DNA from: Crossiella sp. SN42
GTDB taxonomy: Bacteria > Actinomycetota > Actinomycetes > Mycobacteriales > Pseudonocardiaceae
Reading direction: 5' to 3'
Length of the DNA stretch: 47,304 nucleotides
Assembly (NCBI RefSeq): GCF_023897065.1
Contig: NZ_JAMHIV010000052.1
Coordinates: 1 to 47,304 of the forward strand
Shown in pieces: positions 4,166-47,304 of the stretch (position 1 is its first letter; each line of letters starts with the position of its first letter). Below the pieces are notes generated by a model, which was not told the origin of the DNA, ran no database searches, and was given only the letters and a program-made list of their open reading frames with translations. The position numbers and the translations under genes are program-made.

Positions 4166-4204
4166 GCGGCTGCTCGCCCCGCTCAGCCTGAGGCGAGCAG
4201 CCGC
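4166..4204. terminator. Bidirectional terminator hairpin
   Basis: A perfect 13-bp inverted repeat, GCGGCTGCTCGCC (4166-4178) and GGCGAGCAGCCGC (4192-4204), lies between the convergent esterase and NB-ARC genes. The right arm overlaps the last codons of the NB-ARC gene. Confidence 0.75.
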
Positions 4205-6288
4205 CGCACCCGCTCCGCTTCCTGTCCGCGCCGCTGCTTCTGGAACAACTCCAGCGCTTCCGCCCGCACCGCCTGCGCCTGCGCCGGATCCACCTCGGCC
4301 AGCGCGTCACCCAGGCGGTCGAGCACATCCGCCTCCGTGGCGGCATCGGTCCGCTGGCGGCACAGCTCCAGCGCCTCTCGGTAGAGCCGGATCGCCTCGT
4401 CCAGATCGCCGCTGCGGTGCGCCAGGTAGCCCAGGCTGAGCAGGCAACGGGGGATGCCGCGCAGGTTGTCGTCCCGCTGGCAGCGGGCCAGCGCGTCGAG
4501 GCAGTGCGCCCGCGCGGTGTCCAGGTCCCCGAGCTGCGCGGTGTACCAGCCGACCTCGTTGAGCGCGTGCGCGCCGCTGACTGCCTGGAGCTCCTCGTAC
4601 AGCGCCAGCGCAGCCTGCGAATGCGTCAGCGCCTGCTGGTAGTCCTTCAGCTGCGCCCAGGCCGAGGCCACCGCGCGGTGCGTGTGCGCCTGCCCGAGCC
4701 GATCGTCGGCTGCCTGGGCTGCTTCCAGACCCAGTTGCAGCTGTCGCAGCGCCTCATCGTGTTGCCCGAGCTGCGTGCAGGCCCGCCCCAGGTGCCGATG
4801 CGCCTGGATGCGGCAGGTCCAGTCGCTCAGGTGCGCCGCCGCCGCAGTCCCGGCCTGCCACATGGTGAGGTTGTCGCGCAGGTAGCCCTGGCTCAGGTTG
4901 TACGAGGTCAAGGTCCAGGCCAGCTGCCACACGGCCGCGTGCCAGTCCAGCTCCACCGCCAGCTGCTGGGCCGCCATCAGGTTGGCGTGCTCGGCGGCGA
5001 ACCACTCCCCGGCCTCAGCCGCGGTCTCCGGCAGCACGGGCGCGCAGCCCTCCCGCAGACTGGGCAGCTCGATCGGCATGTGGTGCCGGTCGATCAGCAC
5101 GTCCGCGCCGTGCGCCATGTGGCAGTAGAAGTCGAGCAGCCGCCGCTGGGCCTGCTCCCAGTCCTGCTCGGACAGGCGCTGCCGGGCGACCTCACCGGCG
5201 TACAACCGCACCAGGTCGTGCATCCGGTACCGCTCGTGTTCGCGCTGCACCAGCGACACGTCCACCAGCTCGTCGAGCAGCCGCTCGACCTCGGCCTCCG
5301 GCAACCCGGCCAGGCTGGCCGCGGCCGCAACGCTGATGTCCTGCCCCGGCGCCAGCCCCAGCAACGCGAACACCCTGGCCTCAGCGGCTGGCAACGCCTG
5401 GTAGGAGCAGGACAGCACGGTCCGCACGGAGTGCGACTTGCCGCCATCCAGGGCAACCAGCCGCCGGCTCTCCTCCCGCAGTTTCTTCGCCATCCGGGCC
5501 AGCGACGCTCTGCTGTCCAGCCGCGCGGCCACAATGCTCAACGCCAGCGGCAGTCCGGCACACCAGCGCAGCAGCTCCGCAGTCGCCTCCGGCTCAGCTG
5601 CCAGTTGCGCCGCATCCAGCCGCCTGGCCAGCAGCGCCCGCGCCGCCTCGTCATCAAGAACGGTGACTTCCAGCGGGTGGAAAGGCGTGCTCACCCGCAA
5701 GCCAGCCAGCCGGTCCCGGCTAGTGATCAACACGGTGCAGGTCGGATTCCCTGGCAGCAGGTCAACGACCTGGCCCCCGTCCCTGGCGTTGTCCAGCACG
5801 ATGAGCATGCGCCGCCCGTGCAGCTCACTCCGGTACAGCCCGATCAGGGCGTGCTCTTCCGCCGGAATCCGTTCCGGCGGAACGTTCAGGGCGTTCAGGA
5901 ATCCGCGCACCGCCTCCTGCGGGGACATCGGCTGCTCCCGCGGATCGAAGCCCCGCAGGTTCACGAACAGCTGCCCGTCCGGGAACCGGTGCGCGTTCTG
6001 GTGCGCCCAGTGCACCGCCAGCCAGGTCTTGCCCACGCCACCGGCGCCGTTCAACGCCGAGATGGCCACCGTGGCGCCTTCGGTCGCCGAGCCGGCAAGC
6101 GCGTCGTTCAGCGCCGCCAGCTCAGCTTCCCGGCCGGTGAACGCGCTGGGCGAGGGTGGTAGCTGCTGCGGCCGTGGCCACTCCCGATCGGCCGCGAACC
6201 AGACCCCGCCGTGGATGACCCCGGCTTGCACCGACGGCCCGAGCACCGGCCCGTTGACGGTGTTGCGAACCTCGCGGGCGGCTGACAT
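4183..6288 (-). CDS. NB-ARC ATPase with TPR repeats (AfsR-like, no SARP domain)
   Basis: A 701-residue STAND-type regulator. Residues 1-30 hold the short segment NTVNGPVLGPSVQAGVIHGG, which recurs at the N-terminus of many actinomycete NTPase-TPR proteins. The NB-ARC domain follows: P-loop GAGGVGKT at 81-88, Walker B-like LIVLDN at 162-167, a TSRDRL sensor, GLPLAL, and a winged-helix segment with an RMHDLVRLYA motif. The C-terminal third (from about residue 470) is made of tetratricopeptide repeats. Unlike AfsR it lacks a DNA-binding domain, so it probably senses a ligand and acts through a partner. The ATG at 6288 is chosen because the conserved N-terminal motif begins right after it; the ribosome site is weak. 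It lies 70 bp downstream of the Endo H-like gene on the same strand. Confidence 0.85.
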   Translation of the reverse strand: MSAAREVRNTVNGPVLGPSVQAGVIHGGVWFAADREWPRPQQLPPSPSAFTGREAELAALNDALAGSATEGATVAISALNGAGGVGKTWLAVHWAHQNAHRFPDGQLFVNLRGFDPREQPMSPQEAVRGFLNALNVPPERIPAEEHALIGLYRSELHGRRMLIVLDNARDGGQVVDLLPGNPTCTVLITSRDRLAGLRVSTPFHPLEVTVLDDEAARALLARRLDAAQLAAEPEATAELLRWCAGLPLALSIVAARLDSRASLARMAKKLREESRRLVALDGGKSHSVRTVLSCSYQALPAAEARVFALLGLAPGQDISVAAAASLAGLPEAEVERLLDELVDVSLVQREHERYRMHDLVRLYAGEVARQRLSEQDWEQAQRRLLDFYCHMAHGADVLIDRHHMPIELPSLREGCAPVLPETAAEAGEWFAAEHANLMAAQQLAVELDWHAAVWQLAWTLTSYNLSQGYLRDNLTMWQAGTAAAAHLSDWTCRIQAHRHLGRACTQLGQHDEALRQLQLGLEAAQAADDRLGQAHTHRAVASAWAQLKDYQQALTHSQAALALYEELQAVSGAHALNEVGWYTAQLGDLDTARAHCLDALARCQRDDNLRGIPRCLLSLGYLAHRSGDLDEAIRLYREALELCRQRTDAATEADVLDRLGDALAEVDPAQAQAVRAEALELFQKQRRGQEAERVRRLLASG

Positions 6289-6358
6289 GGCGCACAGTTT
6301 GCCCGACTGGCAACCACTATCGAAGGAACTCGCCAGTGTTGTCGCGGCCCGATCACCG

Positions 6359-7279
6359 CTACTTCGTGTACACCGCGTCGCTTCCGTACAGCTCACGGGT
6401 GAAGCTGGAGATGTAGGAAGCCGAGTCAGCCGCGCCCAGGTTGTAGGTCAGGAACACGCCGTACCCCTCGCTCACGGTGCGCCGGGCGAGGCCGGCCGCG
6501 GTGCCGGTGGCGGTGCGGCCGATCTCCACGGCCGCGGGGGAGAGGCGCTGCTTGGGCAGGGAGATGTTCGGCACGCCCCAGGAGCCGTAGTACGGGTTCC
6601 AGGCGTAGCTGAACTTCGGGCCGATGTTCACCCCGCCGTAGGAGAGCCGGGTGGCCGACGGGCCGATGTTGTACAGCGAGATGATCTTGTTGGGCAGGGT
6701 GTTCCGCAGCGCGGTGACCAGGTGCACGAACGAGCTGGCGTTGGGCTGGCCGGTGCCGTTCTCGCCGTACTTGGCGTACTCGTCGTCGAAGTCGATGCCG
6801 TCGAGCCCGTACCTGGTGACCGCGTCGGAGAGCTGCTTGGCGAAGGCCTCCGCCGCCGCCTTGGTCGGGAAGTTCGCGAAGCCCGCGCCCTGGTGGTTGC
6901 CGAGCACGGACAGCACCACCTTGATGCCCTTGGCCTGCAGCGGGCGGATCTGGGTCGCCGCGTTGTCCAGCACCCGCCGCACGTTCTCGTTGAAGTGCAG
7001 GTACGCCGCCTTCTTCGCCGCGTCGTAGTTGATGTTGGCGGCGAAGATGATGCCGATGTCGAAGACGTTCGCGCCGCCCTTGGCCAGCGTGTACTTGCCG
7101 ACGTTGAGCATGCTGTGGTTGTTGACCTCGACGTAGGCCACGGAGACCGGCCCGTTCTTGGCCCGGGGCGCCGGGCTGCCCGACGCGGCGGCGGGGGTGG
7201 TCACGCCGACCGCGAGGGTGGCCGCGGCCAGTGCTGCGAGCGCGGCCGACCGCGCGGTGATCCGACCGAACTTGACCAT
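6359..7279 (-). CDS. Secreted endo-beta-N-acetylglucosaminidase, Endo H-like (GH18)
   Basis: A 306-residue exported enzyme very close to Streptomyces plicatus Endo H, which hydrolyses the GlcNAc-beta-1,4-GlcNAc core of high-mannose and hybrid N-glycans (EC 3.2.1.96). A Sec signal peptide covers about residues 1-33. The mature part starts with the conserved VSVAYVEVNN; the GH18 DxxDxDxE motif is D160-G-I-D163-F-D165-D166-E167, with D165 and E167 corresponding to Endo H Asp130 and Glu132. Other near-identical blocks are SVLGNHQGAGFANFP and KIISLYNIGP. Length matches Endo H. GGGAG lies about 10 nt before the ATG. A DasR-like palindrome sits 42 bp upstream, pointing to control by aminosugar availability. 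Confidence 0.95.
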   Translation of the reverse strand: MVKFGRITARSAALAALAAATLAVGVTTPAAASGSPAPRAKNGPVSVAYVEVNNHSMLNVGKYTLAKGGANVFDIGIIFAANINYDAAKKAAYLHFNENVRRVLDNAATQIRPLQAKGIKVVLSVLGNHQGAGFANFPTKAAAEAFAKQLSDAVTRYGLDGIDFDDEYAKYGENGTGQPNASSFVHLVTALRNTLPNKIISLYNIGPSATRLSYGGVNIGPKFSYAWNPYYGSWGVPNISLPKQRLSPAAVEIGRTATGTAAGLARRTVSEGYGVFLTYNLGAADSASYISSFTRELYGSDAVYTK

Positions 7280-7320
7280 CGTTGATCAAACTCCCGTCGA
7301 CTGAGCTGCTGGGATCGCGT

Positions 7321-7336
7321 GCTGGTCCAGACAACT
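7321..7336 (-). promoter_or_regulatory. DasR-like operator (dre) upstream of the Endo H gene
   Basis: GCTGGTCCAGACAACT differs only slightly from the DasR consensus ACTGGTCTAGACCACT (13 of the 15 bases from CTGGTC onward agree by eye). A second half-site, CACTGGTCCA, lies at 7352-7361. Both are upstream of the start at 7279. Confidence 0.6.
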
Positions 7337-7386
7337 ATCGGCCGCGAGAGCACACTGGTCCATCCGCCGAAGTGTGGGCGCCTGCC

Positions 7387-7998
7387 TTAGCCGGCGGCGG
7401 TGACCGCGGCCAGGCGACGGTGCTCCAGCACGGCCGCGACCAGGAAGCCGCCGGTGCCCGCGATGGCCAGCACCCAGAACAGGCCGGGCGCGCCGAGGAA
7501 GAGCGCGGCCGAGGAGATCAGGGTGAGGTAGCTGCCGAGCACGTAGTGCAGGACGTTGCGGCGCACCGCGCCCTCGCCCAGGTACAGCAGGCCGACCACA
7601 AATCCGGCCCCGGCCGGCCACAGCATCGAGTGCACGTTCGGCATGCCCGGCAGCGCGTGCAGCCCGTTGATGGTCAGCGCCAGCCCGGCCATGCCGATCA
7701 CCCAGGCCGCGCCGATCAGCTTGCCGGAGAACGCTTCCGGCCCGCTCAGGCCCTTCTGGGCGCGCAGCGCGGCGAGGGTGGCGAAGACCGTGCCCGCGGC
7801 GAGCCCGGCGATCAGCAGCGCCATCGGCAGCCAGCCGGGCAGGGGGACCAGCGGGTTGTCGCCCTTGCTGAGCGCGGAGGCGCCGTGCCCGAACAGGTAG
7901 GCGAAGGCGAAACCGAGGTAGGCGGCGCGGCTGTCGACCTCACCGGCGCGGGCGGCGAGGCGGGGGGCCGTCGGGACGGCGAAGGTCGCGGTGGTCAT
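7387..7998 (-). CDS. Six-helix integral membrane protein, function unknown
   Basis: A 203-residue protein with about six hydrophobic helices (for example LPMALLIAGLAAGTVFATLAA, here interrupted by no charged residues, then IGAAWVIGMAGLALTI, and a C-terminal FLVAAV helix). Short charged loops and an RAQKGLSG cytoplasmic loop are visible. It loosely recalls the AmiS/UreI size and topology, but I see no diagnostic motif, so no transport role is claimed. The start codon overlaps the stop of the broken TetR gene (ATGA), so it was probably the last gene of an operon reductase-tetR-membrane protein. The Endo H gene lies about 107 bp downstream. Confidence 0.75.
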   Translation of the reverse strand: MTTATFAVPTAPRLAARAGEVDSRAAYLGFAFAYLFGHGASALSKGDNPLVPLPGWLPMALLIAGLAAGTVFATLAALRAQKGLSGPEAFSGKLIGAAWVIGMAGLALTINGLHALPGMPNVHSMLWPAGAGFVVGLLYLGEGAVRRNVLHYVLGSYLTLISSAALFLGAPGLFWVLAIAGTGGFLVAAVLEHRRLAAVTAAG

Positions 7999-8511
7999 GG
8001 CTGTGGCCTTCCGTTCGTGAGGTGGCACAAGGGGATGGTGATCCGCTGGTTGATGTCGGCAGGCCAGGGAAACGGCGTGCACATGGCGCGCTGGTGGGCA
8101 AGCCCGTGCAGGCCGAGCCACAGCGCGACCGCGTCGGCCGCCGGTGCGGTGCTGTCGCCATGGCCTCGGGTGACGCAGTCGCGCAGGAGCCCGGCGATGA
8201 GCTCCAGCGACGCCGCGCCCAGGGTGGCCACCATGTCGGCGATGAGCCCACCGCGGCCGAGCACGGGTTTCTGTGCGGCATACCTGGGCTTCGCCCGCGG
8301 CCACCCGGAGCGCTACCGCCTCATGTTCGACGGCGCGTGGAGGTAGATCGACGGGGCGGCGATGCCGGTGCGGCGAGCCACCGCGCGCAGGGTCACCGCC
8401 CGCTCGTCACCACCGTCGTTGATCAGGCCGGCGGCCGCGGCCAGGATCTCCGCGCGCAGCAGCGCCCTCGCCCCGGCGGTTCCTGGTGTGCGCGCGGATG
8501 GCGCTGGTCAC
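7995..8511 (-). pseudogene. TetR regulator remnant with frameshift and internal inversion
   Basis: Three pieces of one TetR protein are present. The N-terminus reads on the minus strand from a GTG at 8511 (RNRRGEG), shifts frame near 8470-8477, and continues through VTLRAVARRTGIAAPSIYLH to about 8335. The middle piece, AAYLGFARGHPERYRLMF then DGAW, is on the opposite (plus) strand at about 8277-8340. The C-terminus resumes on the minus strand at 8264-7995. Each piece aligns in order with the intact TetR at 9668-10309; PAADAVALWLGLHGLAHQRA is identical in both. About 45 residues between the helix-turn-helix and AAYL appear lost. Original coupling to neighbours survives: GTGA with the reductase gene and ATGA with the membrane protein gene. 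Confidence 0.85.
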
Positions 8512-9560
8512 GGGTGCGGCTGCGCGACGATGACCACCTTGCCCAGCACAGTCCGCGACTCCGCCAGCGCCAGCGCCGCACCGGCCTCCGACAGCGGGAA
8601 CCGCCCGGCGATCTGCGCGGTGAGCACGCCCTCGGCCAGCAGCCGCAGCACCTGCGTGAGGTCCTCGGCCAGCCGGGCGCGGAAGTCGGCCAGGCGGCGC
8701 TTGCCCGCCCAGAAGTTGTAGAACGTCGCGCTCTTGCCGTTGGGCAGCAGGTTCCACACCAGCAGCCGCCCGAACGACTTCAGCACCGGCAGCCGCGAGT
8801 TCCCGTCCTCGTTCTTGGTGGCCGCGGTGCCGTAGGAGACGAGGGTGCCGCCGCGGCGCAACAACCGCCACGACTCCGCCAGCCCCGCCCCGCCCACGTG
8901 GTCGAACACCGCGTGCACGCCCTCCGGCGCGATCTCACGGATCCGCTGGTACATGTCCGGATCGCGGTAGTTGACCGGGATCGCGCCCAGCTCACGCACC
9001 GAGTCGTGGTGCTGAAGGGAGGCGGTGCCGATCACCCTGATCCCGGCATGCCGGGCCAGCTGCACCAGCGTGGACCCAACCCCGCCATTGGCGCCCAGCA
9101 CCACGATCGTGCCGCCCTCGGGCACCTTGGCCGCCCGGTGCAGCATCTGCCAGGCGGTGATCCCGTTGACCACCACCGTTTCCGCCGCGGCGGGATCCAC
9201 CCCGTCCGGCACCGGCACCAGATCGGCGGCCTCCAGCACCAGCGAACTGGCCCAGCCCCCGATCTTGGTCACCGCGGCGAACCGCCGCCCGGCCAACGCG
9301 CCGTCCACCCCAGGCCCGACCGCGGTGACCGTCCCGACCACGTCGTACCCGGGCACGAACGGAAACGGCGGCTGGTCGTAGTACTTGCCCCGCCGCATCT
9401 GCTGCTCGGCGAACGAGACCCCGGTCGCGTCCATCCGCAACACAACCTGCCCCGCGCCCGGCGCAGGCAGCTCCGAGGTCCGCACCTGGAGCCCACTGGA
9501 GTCGACCTTGCCAGGCAGAACAACCTGGGTGGCCTGGGTGGTGACAGTGCTACTGGCCAT
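8508..9560 (-). CDS. Medium-chain reductase, NADPH:quinone oxidoreductase type
   Basis: A 350-residue MDR-superfamily enzyme. The N-terminal GroES-like domain includes DATGVSFAEQQMRRGKYY and FVPGYDVVGTVTAVG; the Rossmann domain has LGANGGVGS at 155-163 followed by AFDHVGG-like VFDHVGGAG. The structural-zinc cysteines and catalytic-zinc ligands of true alcohol dehydrogenases are absent, pointing to a zinc-independent zeta-crystallin/quinone reductase-like enzyme using NADPH. The ATG at 9560 follows a strong GGAGGAGA site, whereas the in-frame ATG at 9608 has none and would overlap the operator. It is divergent from an intact TetR and overlaps the TetR remnant downstream, a typical arrangement for a TetR-controlled detoxifying reductase. 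Confidence 0.9.
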   Translation of the reverse strand: MASSTVTTQATQVVLPGKVDSSGLQVRTSELPAPGAGQVVLRMDATGVSFAEQQMRRGKYYDQPPFPFVPGYDVVGTVTAVGPGVDGALAGRRFAAVTKIGGWASSLVLEAADLVPVPDGVDPAAAETVVVNGITAWQMLHRAAKVPEGGTIVVLGANGGVGSTLVQLARHAGIRVIGTASLQHHDSVRELGAIPVNYRDPDMYQRIREIAPEGVHAVFDHVGGAGLAESWRLLRRGGTLVSYGTAATKNEDGNSRLPVLKSFGRLLVWNLLPNGKSATFYNFWAGKRRLADFRARLAEDLTQVLRLLAEGVLTAQIAGRFPLSEAGAALALAESRTVLGKVVIVAQPHP

Positions 9561-9586
9561 GGCGTGCTCTCCTCCAACGCTTGAAC

Positions 9587-9600
9587 TTACGTCCGTAAGG
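9587..9600. promoter_or_regulatory. Probable TetR operator palindrome
   Basis: CTTACG-tc-CGTAAG is a perfect 6+6 inverted repeat between the divergent reductase and TetR genes. Related half-sites recur at 9639-9645 (CCGTAAG) and 9651-9659 (CTTGTAAGC), the latter overlapping the TetR -10 region, as expected for autoregulation. Confidence 0.65.
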
Positions 9601-9654
9601 CTACGCACGTTAGCTAGCTCAGCGCAACGGCTAACACCCGTAAGCCTTTGCTTG

Positions 9655-9660
9655 TAAGCT
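9655..9660 (+). promoter_or_regulatory. -10 box of a leaderless tetR transcript
   Basis: TAAGCT is separated by 7 nt from the ATG at 9668, which has no ribosome-binding site. Transcription would begin at or next to the start codon. Confidence 0.5.
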
Positions 9661-9667
9661 AACGCCC

Positions 9668-10309
9668 ATGGAAGACGCCAAGGCCGCGCCCAAGCCCGCC
9701 CGCGCCCGCAACCGCCGCGGCGAAGGCGCCCGCCTGCGCGAGGAGATCGTGACCGCGGCAGTCGCCCTGCTCGACGAAACTGGCGACGAAAGCGCCGTCA
9801 CCCTGCGCGCGGTGGCCCGCCAGGTGGGCATCGCCGCCCCGTCGATCTACCGCCACTTCCCCGACCAGCCGAGCATCATGCTGGCCGTGGTCCAACAGGC
9901 CTTCGCCGAACTGGAAACCCGCCTCAGCACCGCCAGAGACGCCGCCCCCCAGCACCCCCGAGCCCGCCTGACCGCCGTCTGCACCGCCTACCTGAACTTC
10001 GCCCAACAACACCCCGGCCGCTACCGCACCATGTTCGGCGGCCTGTGGATGCCCGACCTGGACAACAGCACCCTGACCGAATCCGACATGACCGAGCTCG
10101 GCCAAGCCGCCATGCGCCTACTCGCCGAGGTCTTGTCGTACTGCGTCACCGCTGGCCTGTCCACCAGCACCGATCCGGCTGCGGACGCGGTTGCCCTGTG
10201 GCTGGGGCTGCATGGCCTCGCGCACCAGCGCGCGGTGACCGTGGTCTTTCCGGGACCGGCGGACATCGCCGACCGCATGATCACCGCGCTCGCGCACCTG
10301 CGCGGTTAG
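9668..10309 (+). CDS. TetR/AcrR family regulator with WHG-type C-terminal domain
   Basis: A 213-residue TetR regulator. A basic N-terminal tail (RARNRRGEGARLREEIV) leads into the helix-turn-helix VTLRAVARQVGIAAPSIYRHF (about residues 38-60, quoted ends only). The C-terminal half has the WHG-family pattern AYLNFAQQHPGRYRTMF and ALWLGLHGLAHQRA. It is divergent from the quinone-type reductase with 107 bp between starts holding palindromic operator sites, so it most likely represses that gene and itself. It is a clear paralogue of the broken TetR at 7995-8511. It converges on the PIN-domain gene with a 5-bp gap. Confidence 0.93.
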   Translation: MEDAKAAPKPARARNRRGEGARLREEIVTAAVALLDETGDESAVTLRAVARQVGIAAPSIYRHFPDQPSIMLAVVQQAFAELETRLSTARDAAPQHPRARLTAVCTAYLNFAQQHPGRYRTMFGGLWMPDLDNSTLTESDMTELGQAAMRLLAEVLSYCVTAGLSTSTDPAADAVALWLGLHGLAHQRAVTVVFPGPADIADRMITALAHLRG

Positions 10310-10314
10310 CGGGG

Positions 10315-11160
10315 TTACGAGGGGTCTCCGTCTGGCGTGGACAGTGCGACTACGTCGAGCCCCGCGGCTCTGGCACGGAGCACCATGCCCAGGTCGGAAG
10401 TGACCAGTTTGATCTTGCGTCCGATCCAGGTCTCGACGACGAGGGCGCTGGCAACGATCTCGTCGTCGGCGCGGGCATGCCGTACGTGTCCAGGCGGGTC
10501 GAACAGCAACTCGATGGTGTCGTCAGGGTGGCCGACCGGAGGCGATGGTTGAGCGAGGTCCGCTACTTCGCGCAGCCTGCCAACCGAGTCCGGCTCGGTG
10601 AGTTCACGGCTCAGAACCGCAAGGGTGACCCTGGCTCTGCTTCGCGCGCCAGTGCGCTTGAGCCGGTCGAGTTCATCTACGACCACGAGGGGCACCACCA
10701 CGTGTACGGGAGAGGCCGGAATGCCGATAGCCGCCGCGTAGTCGATGTGCCTGATGCTGTTGCTGTGATGGAGGTAGACGTTGGTGTCCGGCATGACGAA
10801 CGTGCCGGAACGCTTCCATCTCGCTCGTTCGCGGACCAGTTCTGCGCAGGCCGCTTCGAGCGTGGCCACTCGCTCGTCGAGTTCGAGGGCGGCGATGTCC
10901 GCAAGCCGAGTAGCCTCCGAGATCGATCCGGGTTCGGTTAAAAGAAGAACATAGCGTTTTGTCATCACCAGTCGCGAGATGTCTTCCGCGTCGATCTGGG
11001 CTCGTAGCTTGCGGTAAGATTCAATTGCCCATTGATGGTAATCGCGGAGGTACTGCTTCGGGTCGGTTCCCCGGACCAAGTTCTGTGCCCCCATGCGTAC
11101 CTGCTCCAGCGCCATATACAGGTTGGAGATGTTCGCGCCGGGGTGCGGAGTGATGTGCAT
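10315..11160 (-). CDS. PIN-domain protein
   Basis: A 281-residue protein. The N-terminal half is helical with no known family recognised. A PIN-like nuclease fold occupies about residues 118-275, with the expected acidic residues: D125 in FVMPDTNVYLHH, E163 in VVVDELDRLK, D232/D233 in RADDEIVASA and D256 in LVTSDLGMV. Such domains usually cleave RNA with Mg2+. There is no small antitoxin gene next to it, so a VapBC pair is not supported; the long N-terminal region may regulate it. The ATG at 11160 is chosen because the upstream in-frame extension is low in coding character. Base composition is a little less GC-rich than flanking core genes. It belongs to the accessory patch with the RepA-like gene. 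Confidence 0.75.
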   Translation of the reverse strand: MHITPHPGANISNLYMALEQVRMGAQNLVRGTDPKQYLRDYHQWAIESYRKLRAQIDAEDISRLVMTKRYVLLLTEPGSISEATRLADIAALELDERVATLEAACAELVRERARWKRSGTFVMPDTNVYLHHSNSIRHIDYAAAIGIPASPVHVVVPLVVVDELDRLKRTGARSRARVTLAVLSRELTEPDSVGRLREVADLAQPSPPVGHPDDTIELLFDPPGHVRHARADDEIVASALVVETWIGRKIKLVTSDLGMVLRARAAGLDVVALSTPDGDPS

Positions 11161-11557
11161 CGGGTCATCGTTGCAGCAGTTTGTCCTCTGCTGGTCAAGG
11201 TGAGATTGCGACACCGGGTTGAGTTCGGTATCAACAGGTTGAGGGAAGCCCGCTGGGTCGATTCCATGCCCCTGGTCCTGGCAGTTTTCCGCCCAGGGGG
11301 CCGGGCTATCCGATTTCCGTCCCGATTGCCTCACCGCTCCCCGGGCGATATCCGAGTCGCCTCGAATTCGACTAGCCTGGCGAGGCTGGAAGACCTGTTT
11401 TCGACGCTTCAGTCAGAAACGCGCTAGCAGTCATGATCCGACTGTCCGAAGTGGCCTTGCGCGAAGAAGGCTCGGCATCGTCAGTTCCTGTGACGTGAGC
11501 CGCGTACGACGCGGCGTGCCTGCTGCCGTCACGTTGAAATTATGGCAAGCTCTGGTT
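11161..11557. other. Intergenic region upstream of the RepA-like gene
   Basis: About 400 bp between the divergent PIN and RepA-like genes with no convincing gene. It holds a 10-bp palindrome TCGAATTCGA at 11362-11371 and a perfect inverted repeat GCCGCGT-acg-ACGCGGC at 11499-11515. No clear iteron array, AT-rich origin or partition site was seen, but these palindromes are candidates for RepA or promoter sites. Confidence 0.45.
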
Positions 11558-12562
11558 ATGAGTCACAAATCTGCCGCAGTCAGACGAGAAGAAGATGCAG
11601 AAGCCTTTGTCAGGGCAAGGATGGCTGCGCCCGTAATTGGCTATACGACCGCATTCTTGGCGCAGTCACCGTTGCCGTACAGAGCTCCGCGTGACGGGTT
11701 CATGTGGCGGCGCGATTTGTCGAACTCAACATTTGTAGCGAACTCTGGTTTTGTGGCTGATCGCCATGGCGATATGCAGCCGATCGGTCTCCCGTATGGC
11801 ATTTACCCGCGTCTTCTTTTGATCTGGCTGTGCACCCAGGTGTATCGCAGTGGAAGTCTGCAGATCAAGTTCGACAGTAGTTTTGCGGAATTTGCTCGTG
11901 AATTGCGACCAGGGTTTCGATCCAGTGGAGGGCGCAATGGAAGTCTGACGCGTCTCAGGGACCAGAGGGCGAGGCTGTACGGCTCTTCCCTTTCTTTCTG
12001 TGGATTCGAGACAAATGCTACTGTCGACGCCAGGTACCTTGCGGGTATGACTCCGGTGGCAACAGAGAATATGGATGGATCGGTGACCGTTGCATCCGAA
12101 CTTCTGCGGCAGGTGCAGGAGTACTGTGTTCCCCTTAATCTCAGGGTGCTCTGGGCTTTATCGAGGTCGCCTATGTGTATGGATCTGTATGTCTGGCTGG
12201 CGTACTTCCTCAGTCGGCGGCGTCATGATATCACTGTTACATGGGATTCTCTTCACAAGCGGTTTGGTGCGGAATTTAGAGACAATCATCAGGGTAGGTT
12301 TGCGTTTCGCAAGACGTTCAAAGAGTACCTTAACCAAGTGCTACTTGCTTGTCCCGATGTCAGGGCTGAGGTGTATGCGACCGGAGTTCATATAATGTCG
12401 GAATCAAACTCTCTCCCTGTCGGCGATCTAGCGGCAATAGATAGGTCTGCTGGAGATCGAACGCTACAGCTGGGAATTCACAATGAATTATCGGGAGTCA
12501 TTTATGGTTCTGTAGTGCAAATTGGCAAATTGTGCCACTGTGTTAAGTTAGGGGATCGATGA
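11558..12562 (+). CDS. Plasmid RepA-like replication initiator, chromosomal
   Basis: A 334-residue protein matching the plasmid RepA family (PF04796-type). Diagnostic blocks are LPYGIYPRLLLIWL at 78-91, the SSFAEFARELRPG helix, SLTRLRDQRARLYGSSLSF, and the second winged-helix region VPLNLRVLWALSRSPMCMDLY followed by WLAYFLSR, WDSLHKRFGAEF and FRKTFKEYL. These proteins open plasmid origins. The gene is plainly AT-richer than everything around it, with many A/T-ending codons, a sign of horizontal origin. No parA, tra or integrase gene is visible in the window. The ATG at 11558 is preferred; an upstream GTG at 11495 is possible and neither has a strong ribosome site. It could be a remnant of an integrated plasmid, possibly still functional. 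Confidence 0.82.
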   Translation: MSHKSAAVRREEDAEAFVRARMAAPVIGYTTAFLAQSPLPYRAPRDGFMWRRDLSNSTFVANSGFVADRHGDMQPIGLPYGIYPRLLLIWLCTQVYRSGSLQIKFDSSFAEFARELRPGFRSSGGRNGSLTRLRDQRARLYGSSLSFCGFETNATVDARYLAGMTPVATENMDGSVTVASELLRQVQEYCVPLNLRVLWALSRSPMCMDLYVWLAYFLSRRRHDITVTWDSLHKRFGAEFRDNHQGRFAFRKTFKEYLNQVLLACPDVRAEVYATGVHIMSESNSLPVGDLAAIDRSAGDRTLQLGIHNELSGVIYGSVVQIGKLCHCVKLGDR

Positions 12563-12969: not shown

Positions 12970-13055
12970 TGGTGTCCGAGGGGGGACTTGAACCCCCACC
13001 CCCTTTCGGGGACTAGCACCTCAAGCTAGCGCGTCTGCCATTCCGCCACCCGGAC
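12970..13055 (-). tRNA. tRNA-Leu (anticodon GAG)
   Basis: On the minus strand the gene folds as a class II tRNA: acceptor GTCCGGG pairs with CTCGGAC, the D-arm has TGGCGGAATGGCAGACGC, the anticodon stem CTAGC encloses the loop TTGAGGT (anticodon GAG, reading CUC/CUU), a long variable arm CCCCGAAAGGGG follows, and the T-arm GGGGG-TTCAAGT-CCCCC is perfect. Discriminator A and an encoded CCA end the gene at 12970. The accessory region with the RepA-like gene lies on its 3' side, where integrative elements commonly insert. Confidence 0.96.
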
Positions 13056-45393: not shown

Positions 45394-47304
45394 ATGCCCA
45401 TCCGCCGATGGCGTGCCACCGCGATGCTGACCGCCCTGCTGCTCGCCCTGTTCGGCCTGTCCGCCCTGCCGGCGAACGCGGCCACCGGGGTGACCGCGAA
45501 GTTCACCAAGACCTCCGGCTGGGACACCGGCTACGAGGGCAAGTACACGATCACCAACAACGGACCGGCGGCGATCAGCAGCTGGACGGTGGAGTTCGAC
45601 CTGCCTGCCGGGCACCGGCTGGGCTCGCTGTGGGAGGCCACGCACACCGTCAGCGGCCAGCGGGTGACCGCGAAGAGCCAGTCCTGGAACGGATCCCTGA
45701 CCGCGGGCCAGTCCGCCAGCTTCGGCTTCGGCGTGCAGTTCACCGGCGCCTACCGCGACCCGGGCGGCTGCAAGGTCAACGGCGCCTCCTGTGACGGCGG
45801 CAGCGGCGAACCGGACACCCAGGCGCCCAGCGCGCCCGGCCAGCCCTCGATCACCAGTGTCAGCAGCTCCAGCCTCTCGCTGAGCTGGCCCGCCAGCACC
45901 GACAACGTCGGCGTCACCGGCTACGAGATCGTCGGCGACGGCGTGGTGGTGGCCACCGCGACCAGTACCTCGGCCACCGTGACCGGACTGGCCGCGGACA
46001 CCTCCTACACCTTCACCGTGCGCGCCAAGGACGCCGCCGGGAACACCTCGGCGGCCAGCCCCGCGGTCACCGGCAAGACCGGCAAGGGCGGCGACCCCGG
46101 CCCCTCGGGCAACCGCAAGGTCGGCTACTTCACCCAGTGGAGCGTCTACGACCGCGCCTACCACGTGAAGAACCTGGACACCTCCGGCACCGCGGCCCGG
46201 CTGACCCACCTGAACTACGCCTTCGGCAACGTCAACGCCGAGGGCAAGTGCTTCCAGGTCAACCAGGCGGGCCAGGGCGACTCCTGGGCCGACTACCAGC
46301 GCCGCCTGCCCGCCGAGCAGGCCGTGGACGGGGTCGCCGACGTCTACAACCAGCCGCTGGCCGGCAACCTCAACCAGCTCAAGAAGCTCAAGGCCAAGTA
46401 CCCGCACCTGCGGGTGCTGATCAGCCTCGGCGGCTGGACCTGGTCGAAGTACTTCTCCAACGCCGCGCTCACCGACGCCTCGCGCAAGGCGCACGTCAGC
46501 TCCTGCATCGACATGTGGATCAAGGGCAACCTGCCGGTCATCGGCGGCGACCCGCAGGGCGGGCCCGGCTCCGGCGCGGGCATCTTCGACGGCGTGGACC
46601 TGGACTGGGAGTGGCCCGGTTCCGAGGGCAACACCGGCAACATCGTCCGGCCCGAGGACAAGCGCAACTTCAGCCTGCTGGCCGCGGAGTACCGCGCCCA
46701 GCTGGACGCCCTCGGCGCGAGCACCGGCAAGAAGTACGACCTGACCGCGTTCCTGCCCGCCGACCCGCGCAAGGTCGACGCCGGGTTCGAGGTCGGCGAG
46801 GTGGTCAAGAACCTGACCTTCGGCAACGTGCAGGGCTACGACTTCCACGGTGGCTGGGAGAAGGTGGCCAACCAGCAGTCCTCGGTCAAGCACCCCGCCG
46901 GTGACCCGAGCCCGTTCGCCTACTCCGACGAGATCGCGGTGGACGCCTGGATCAGCCGGGGCGCGCCTGCCAACTGGGTCGTGCTCGGCGTGCCCTTCTA
47001 CAGCAGGGGCTGGACCGGCGTGACCAACGCCAACAACGGCCTCTTCCAGGCCGCCACCGGTCCCGCGCCGGGCACCTACGAGGCGGGCATCGAGGACTAC
47101 AAGAAGATCAAGAACCTGGTGAGCAGTGGCTACACCGTGCACCGGGACGCCGTGGCCGGGCACGCCTGGCTGTTCAACGGCAGCACCTTCTGGACCTTCG
47201 ACGATCCCACCGAGATCACCAGGAAGGTCAACTGGGCCAAGAGCAAGGGCCTGGGCGGCGCGATGATCTGGTCCCTCGACGGCGACACCGCCGACGGTGA
47301 GCTG
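45394..47304 (+). CDS. Secreted chitinase, CBM2-FnIII-GH18, 3' end outside window
   Basis: At least 637 residues, cut by the window edge a few codons before the expected end. A Sec signal peptide covers residues 1-29 (ALPANA/A). A CBM2-type chitin/cellulose-binding domain (about 31-130, with GWDTGYEGKYTITN and SQSWNGSLTAG) and a fibronectin III domain (about 146-228, APSAPGQPSITSVSSSSLSL onward) precede the GH18 catalytic domain. Catalytic DxxDxDxE is D399-G-V-D402-L-D404-W-E406; LISLGGWTWSKYF and GAMIWSLDGD frame the barrel. It cleaves chitin outside the cell. GAGGAGA lies 5 nt before ATG. DasR-like sites upstream suggest induction by chitin breakdown products. Confidence 0.96.
   Translation, partial: MPIRRWRATAMLTALLLALFGLSALPANAATGVTAKFTKTSGWDTGYEGKYTITNNGPAAISSWTVEFDLPAGHRLGSLWEATHTVSGQRVTAKSQSWNGSLTAGQSASFGFGVQFTGAYRDPGGCKVNGASCDGGSGEPDTQAPSAPGQPSITSVSSSSLSLSWPASTDNVGVTGYEIVGDGVVVATATSTSATVTGLAADTSYTFTVRAKDAAGNTSAASPAVTGKTGKGGDPGPSGNRKVGYFTQWSVYDRAYHVKNLDTSGTAARLTHLNYAFGNVNAEGKCFQVNQAGQGDSWADYQRRLPAEQAVDGVADVYNQPLAGNLNQLKKLKAKYPHLRVLISLGGWTWSKYFSNAALTDASRKAHVSSCIDMWIKGNLPVIGGDPQGGPGSGAGIFDGVDLDWEWPGSEGNTGNIVRPEDKRNFSLLAAEYRAQLDALGASTGKKYDLTAFLPADPRKVDAGFEVGEVVKNLTFGNVQGYDFHGGWEKVANQQSSVKHPAGDPSPFAYSDEIAVDAWISRGAPANWVVLGVPFYSRGWTGVTNANNGLFQAATGPAPGTYEAGIEDYKKIKNLVSSGYTVHRDAVAGHAWLFNGSTFWTFDDPTEITRKVNWAKSKGLGGAMIWSLDGDTADGEL

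Follow-up and report, generated by a model that had tools for sequence, protein, structure and literature searches.

A TetR-family gene of Crossiella sp. SN42 that was probably inactivated recently by a small inversion with one-sided loss

Introduction

The window analysed here, a stretch of 47,304 nucleotides from Crossiella sp. SN42 (genome G000), contains a four-gene cassette in which one TetR-family gene, TetR1, lies in pieces between a membrane-protein-like gene and a reductase gene. The locus raises the question of whether TetR1 is truly broken, what kind of mutation broke it, and what its loss would mean for control of the operon. A preliminary description, made from the letters of the window, had proposed an internal inversion with a deletion and a frameshift, a flip mediated by microhomology, and a transfer of control to the intact paralogue, TetR2. 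To address these points, the window was compared with a genome labelled as the same species (G100, locus L076, a single contig of 9,170,171 bases) and with three genomes of the same genus, G001 (locus L010), G002 and G003 (locus L012).

Results

The cassette spans positions 7387-10309, with the membrane-protein-like gene, TetR1 and the reductase gene all on the minus strand, whereas TetR2 diverges from them and is read from the plus strand (Table 1). The membrane-protein-like gene has no match in the Pfam or NCBIfam profiles, and is found downstream in G100, G001, G002, G003 and G024 as well. The reductase scores under the cut-off of profile TIGR02824. The intergenic region between the reductase gene and TetR2 appears by eye to be conserved across 11 aligned loci, two of them without TetR1. 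Start/stop overlaps join TetR1 to both of its neighbours, as had been described, through GTGA (8508-8511) and ATGA (7995-7998), and both overlaps are the same in G100. Elsewhere in the window, the gene for an NB-ARC and tetratricopeptide-repeat protein (737 aa, 4183-6396) adjoins a family-18 glycosyl hydrolase-like gene (6359-7279).

Table 1. Features of the cassette and of the TetR1 locus, in window coordinates
Feature	Position	Strand	Remarks
Membrane-protein-like gene	7387..7998	-	203 aa; downstream neighbour of TetR1; membrane nature judged by eye
TetR1, dead TetR-family gene	7995..8511	- with inverted (+) piece	From orthologue and paralogue comparison
TetR1 C-terminal remnant	7995..8269	-	Original stop at 7995-7997, overlapping the ATG of the next gene
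Junction 2, flipped piece / C-terminal part	8269..8270		Zero bases lost; GA shared
TetR1 inverted 72-bp piece (CAAYLGFARGHPERYRLMFDGAW)	8270..8341	+	Opposite-strand match to G100, G001, G002 and G003
Junction 1	8341..8342		126 bp (42 codons) of G100, L076 1207-1332, missing
TetR1 N-terminal remnant	8342..8511	-	GTG start at 8511; collinear with G100
TetR1 2-bp shortening relative to intact relatives, in a short GC run	8460..8468	-	Alignment with five intact copies and G100
Reductase gene (MDR-type zinc-binding dehydrogenase / quinone oxidoreductase-like)	8508..9560	-	350 aa; Pfam ADH_zinc_N, ADH_N
Intergenic region with TTAC/GTAA-type repeats	9561..9667		Putative shared operator region; repeats found by eye
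TetR2, intact divergent paralogue	9668..10309	+	213 aa; Pfam TetR_N, TetR_C_33

Read from its GTG, the TetR1 frame reaches a stop at 8407-8409 after 34 codons, and the gene is further disrupted by the inversion and by the loss of 126 bp. The N-terminal remnant retains a recognisable helix-turn-helix region (8343-8465), matches Pfam TetR_N (E 3e-5, 24.1 bits, cut-off 24), and is 85% identical in amino acid sequence to the TetR1 of G001 over 41 codons. The inverted piece scores slightly below the cut-off of TetR_C_33 (E 1.3e-5, 26.2 bits, cut-off 26.8). The C-terminal remnant matches the same profile with an E-value of 1.7e-6, and shares 68% amino acid identity with G001 over 88 codons, all of them free of stops. 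A one-base frameshift had been noted near 8470; there is indeed a frameshift, but it is caused by a shortening of 2 bp, at about 8462-8466.

TetR1 is whole in G100 (214 aa) and intact in G001, G002 and G003, so that the search for an unbroken gene in related genomes, which had been suggested as a check, was successful. An intact homologous gene occupies the same place of the cassette in these four genomes and in G024 and G021. Positions 7301-8271 and 8342-10310 of the window are collinear with G100 at 93-94% identity, while 8270-8341 matches the opposite strand of G100 at 95.8% (69 of 72 bases). Relative to G100, a stretch of 198 bp has become the reverse complement of its own last 72 bp; the first 126 bp of the stretch are lost, all on the N-terminal side, and the C-terminal side is without loss. 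The earlier estimate of about 45 residues lost was thus right as to the loss and slightly too high as to its size, which is 42 codons when measured against the conspecific.

The flipped piece also matches the opposite strand of G001 (8270-8341, 91.7%, E 2e-22), G002 (8278-8341, 93.8%, E 6e-21) and G003 (8272-8340, 85.9%, E 2e-15), and both of its flanks are collinear in all four relatives. The remaining opposite-strand matches of the window to G001, G002 and G003 are the inverted paralogues TetR1 and TetR2 matching each other. Within the window, the comparison of TetR2 with the TetR1 locus finds both end parts, N- and C-terminal, on the minus strand, with a DNA match of 72 bp between them on the plus strand (73.6%, E 1e-8). 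This is the arrangement first described, and the four orthologues confirm it beyond doubt. Because four orthologues in the genus, including that of the conspecific G100, are intact, we accept that TetR1 is broken: judged by these alignments, it is a pseudogene within a conserved operon, disrupted by an inversion, a deletion and a frameshift, and the damage is placed after the lineage split from G100.

Two other origins of the broken appearance were considered. TetR2 lies nearby in plus orientation, and the plus-strand piece could have been derived from it by gene conversion; with an identity of 73.6% to TetR2 against 95.8% to the TetR1 of G100, TetR2 was rejected as the donor, and we give this origin practically no credence. 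Alternatively, the true TetR1 could be collinear and intact, and its broken state an artefact of assembly or sequencing, as might be suspected from a draft assembly of 82 contigs and from the intact state of TetR1 in the four further Crossiella genomes read. Such an error is very unlikely, since the 72-bp event sits inside a contig, the junction repeats are not long enough to have misled an assembler, and there is a second lesion at a distance of about 120 bp; moreover, the 11 matches in the genome of the window include no further TetR1 copy.

The age of the damage, and any relaxation of selection since inactivation, were approached through amino acid changes polarised between the window and G100. 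For TetR1, the window:G100 counts are 6:6 with L010 as outgroup and 9:3 with L012, both of them small numbers; for the three neighbouring genes pooled (336, 199 and 173 codons compared) they are 9:15 and 12:10, respectively. The excess in TetR1 over its three neighbours is not significant (Fisher p 0.50 with L010, 0.29 with L012). Pointing the other way, the ratio of amino acid to silent codon changes between the window and G100, in raw counts, is 18:13 in the TetR1 pieces, which is above that of the reductase gene (14:28) and TetR2 (14:21) and below that of the membrane gene (8:4). TetR1 probably died recently.

An initial relative-rate test, with L012 as outgroup, had given an excess of changes in the window (19:2 against L010, 18:4 against L011), with neighbouring genes at 14:11 (TetR2), 12:21 (reductase gene) and 16:24 (membrane gene) against L010. 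This excess was discarded; L012 is unsuitable as an outgroup in that test because the tree sets G003 beside G001 and G002. With L013 as outgroup the counts are 11:6 and 11:8, which are not significant.

The lack of significant acceleration also suits a reading in which a short protein with some role is still produced from the C-terminal half (ORF 7995-8264, GTG start), for example in translational coupling to the membrane gene, as do the 88 open codons and the retained ATGA overlap. However, recent gene death accounts for both the open frame and the overlap, and the DNA-binding part falls outside the frame translated from 8264; we think it very unlikely that such a protein is still made and has a role.

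With G100 as the ancestral proxy, the homology is 0 bp at junction 1 and 2 bp (GA) at junction 2. The flip had been attributed to a microhomology, GTGG/CCAC, and this proposal is not upheld: the N-side register in G100 reads CGCAC, therefore the CCAC of the window derives from the flipped piece, and breakpoints placed at random in the gene share at least 2 bases in 22% of draws and at least 4 in 3.7%. CCAC is found at this place in one of the six intact copies read (L010, in G001), and if the true ancestor resembled G001 on the N side, the junction would share 4 bp.

In G100, a 24-nt imperfect inverted repeat (19/24) links the two places joined at junction 1, which are switch points 1 and 2. 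Its score is equalled by 1.5% of 1500 same-distance pairs, a post hoc value for one of three pairs tested. The repeat is out of register for a simple switch, and is much weaker in L010-L013 (scores of 7-7.5 vs 11.5). The switch-point pairs 3-4 and 1-3 show nothing unusual (44% and 8.7% of same-distance pairs). At most, the imperfect repeat hints at a fold-back or a template switch.

The locus has the form of a short template-switch mutation, with a reverse-complement segment between collinear flanks, and one replication template switch is the most likely mechanism, with roughly an even chance of being correct. Synthesis would have departed from its template on the N side, used the opposite strand to copy 72 bp in reverse, and resumed where the C-terminal part begins, with 126 bp skipped; the order would be 1-3-2-4 under the four-point scheme, if that scheme applied. 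A separate loss of 2 bp shifted the TetR1 frame.

The same junction homologies of 0 and 2 bp would also suit end joining, with double-strand breaks at both edges, the 72-bp fragment rejoined backwards and 126 bp lost. A match to Ku was found in two of the five genomes, the conspecific G100 and G003, and end joining was therefore possible in a recent ancestor. Against this, Ku is unmatched in G000, G001 and G002, and several breaks together with the retention of a tiny fragment are required; end joining is a real possibility that nonetheless falls short of being probable. The presence of Ku is patchy within this one genus and one species.

Intragenic invertons are reversible inversions inside a coding sequence, with inverted repeats at their edges. 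The inverted internal piece of TetR1 has this look, and would on such a reading toggle the gene on and off. Six inverted pairs were listed in window 8200-8420, and not one of them borders the inversion on both sides; the pair that most closely spans the flipped piece (8201-8219/8353-8371) is 74% complementary. A reversible inverton was rejected, as repeats at the edges and completeness in both orientations were not found, and with 126 bp gone and a separate frameshift a flip back would yield no working gene. Its probability is negligible.

A survey of microinversions against G100 covered the window together with 200 kb each of contigs C4 and C2. It included 264,879 bases in collinear matches, and 30 of the 40 intervals between neighbouring matches passed the size limits. 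Opposite-strand matches were present in four of these 30 intervals: the TetR1 piece (72 bp, E 4e-32) is the only clear microinversion, and the other three matches are weak (12, 17 and 28 bp; E 0.005, 0.002 and 0.001) and were treated as chance. Inversion explained none of the 55 low-identity patches inside the matches, where patches of 16-400 bp were scored.

To see how widely TetR1 is kept, 297 genomes were searched with the reductase and TetR2; 86 of them matched, and the 30 cassettes with the best matches were examined. All 30 contain TetR2, as they must with TetR2 in the query. A TetR1-like gene lies on the same strand beside the reductase gene in 20 of these best 30 cassettes, one is the broken copy of the window, and nine are without it. 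Eleven of the 20 genes match TetR1 best (53-100%). The other nine best match the TetR2 query, at only 36-42%, and their link to TetR1 rests on position; one of them was aligned over 119 residues only. The TetR1-like genes of L081 and L103 have one stop each within the aligned stretch and are possibly broken too. A midpoint-rooted tree, which is without branch supports, gives five losses of TetR1 when the broken window copy is scored as present. Since it is missing from nine of the best 30 cassettes, with five losses on the tree, TetR1 looks like an accessory, dispensable regulator that lineages lose, and the broken copy of the window is one such case.

The recognition regions of the G100 TetR1 and the window TetR2, from LRAV to FPDQ, have 19 of 22 residues in common. 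We infer that TetR2, whose recognition region is almost the same, still regulates the upstream region that both share, so that the loss of TetR1 is tolerated and TetR2 alone may now control the operon. The pattern fits the loss of a redundant regulator. The earlier idea that control had been handed over is thus supported only in part. TetR2 and the intergenic region are intact in the window, and both are conserved whether or not a cassette has TetR1, which is often missing elsewhere; the reductase gene was flanked by two TetR genes even before TetR1 was damaged.

When the window was compared with G001 (80 kb), G002 (60 kb) and G003 (60 kb), the cassette (7399-10303) was the only shared block, the one exception being a match of 278 bp (73%) between window 45813-46087 and G003. 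Because the surroundings of the cassette are common to G001 and G002, and those of G003 and the window are each different, the four genes appear to move together. Collinearity with G100 ends at 10310, directly behind the stop codon of TetR2. Beyond this point, the 70 kb of G100 read gave no other collinear match scoring more than 800 bits, and the 3 kb of G100 beyond its cassette have only two short matches in G000. Directly beyond the cassette in the window are a PIN-domain gene (10318-11334) and a RepA_C plasmid-replication-like gene (11495-12559). A tRNA-Leu (gag) gene at 12970-13055, 2.7 kb past the cassette and near the RepA-like gene, is a possible integration site; a search of the 40 kb surrounding the G100 cassette revealed no tRNA.

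Discussion

Taken as a whole, TetR1 very probably encoded a dispensable TetR-family regulator within its four-gene cassette and was inactivated recently, after the split from G100, by one rearrangement and a separate 2-bp loss. A more ambitious account would have one template switch, helped by the species-specific imperfect palindrome, produce both the inversion and the one-sided loss, and would have the repeated loss of TetR1 across the family reflect selection for single-regulator control of the reductase operon; in this combined form it is rather unlikely to be correct.

A literature search found no paper on this locus, and none combining Crossiella, genome and pseudogene. Although the case is otherwise one of ordinary gene decay, its main interest lies in a cleanly polarised small rearrangement: a conspecific gives a base-by-base approximation of the state before this small bacterial inversion, so that the mechanism can be argued from real junctions. 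The cassettes also suggest that one of two sister regulators is repeatedly dispensable.

Among known systems, intragenic invertons share with TetR1 an inversion in coding sequence; TetR1 differs in being without edge repeats, in its deletion and in being irreversible. Within the TetR regulators of the TetR_C_33 type, TetR2 and the TetR1 pieces match both TetR_N and TetR_C_33, and the TetR1 of the window is broken.

In the four-point template-switch scheme, as set out in the available part of its source, a reverse segment between two collinear ones counts as one event (PMC7954356). TetR1 resembles these events in having a local reverse-complement segment between collinear ones, with the skipped sequence lost; the part of that source available describes them in great apes, whereas the present case is from a bacterium, with 72 bp and junction homologies of 0 and 2 bp relative to its nearest relative (PMC7954356). 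The human-chimpanzee microinversions, according to the accessible portion of the report, are 17-33 nt long and mostly pure, with inverted repeats of at least 3 nt at their flanks, and its authors put forward microhomology-mediated break-induced replication as another possible mechanism in place of template switching (PMC8755829). They too are small in-place inversions identified against a close relative; by the description in that portion, TetR1 differs in its length of 72 bp, its one-sided deletion of 126 bp, and the lack of a repeat adjoining both edges (PMC8755829). In this company, TetR1 is an ordinary pseudogene made by an unusual mutation, distinguished by its intact conspecific copy and its one-sided loss.
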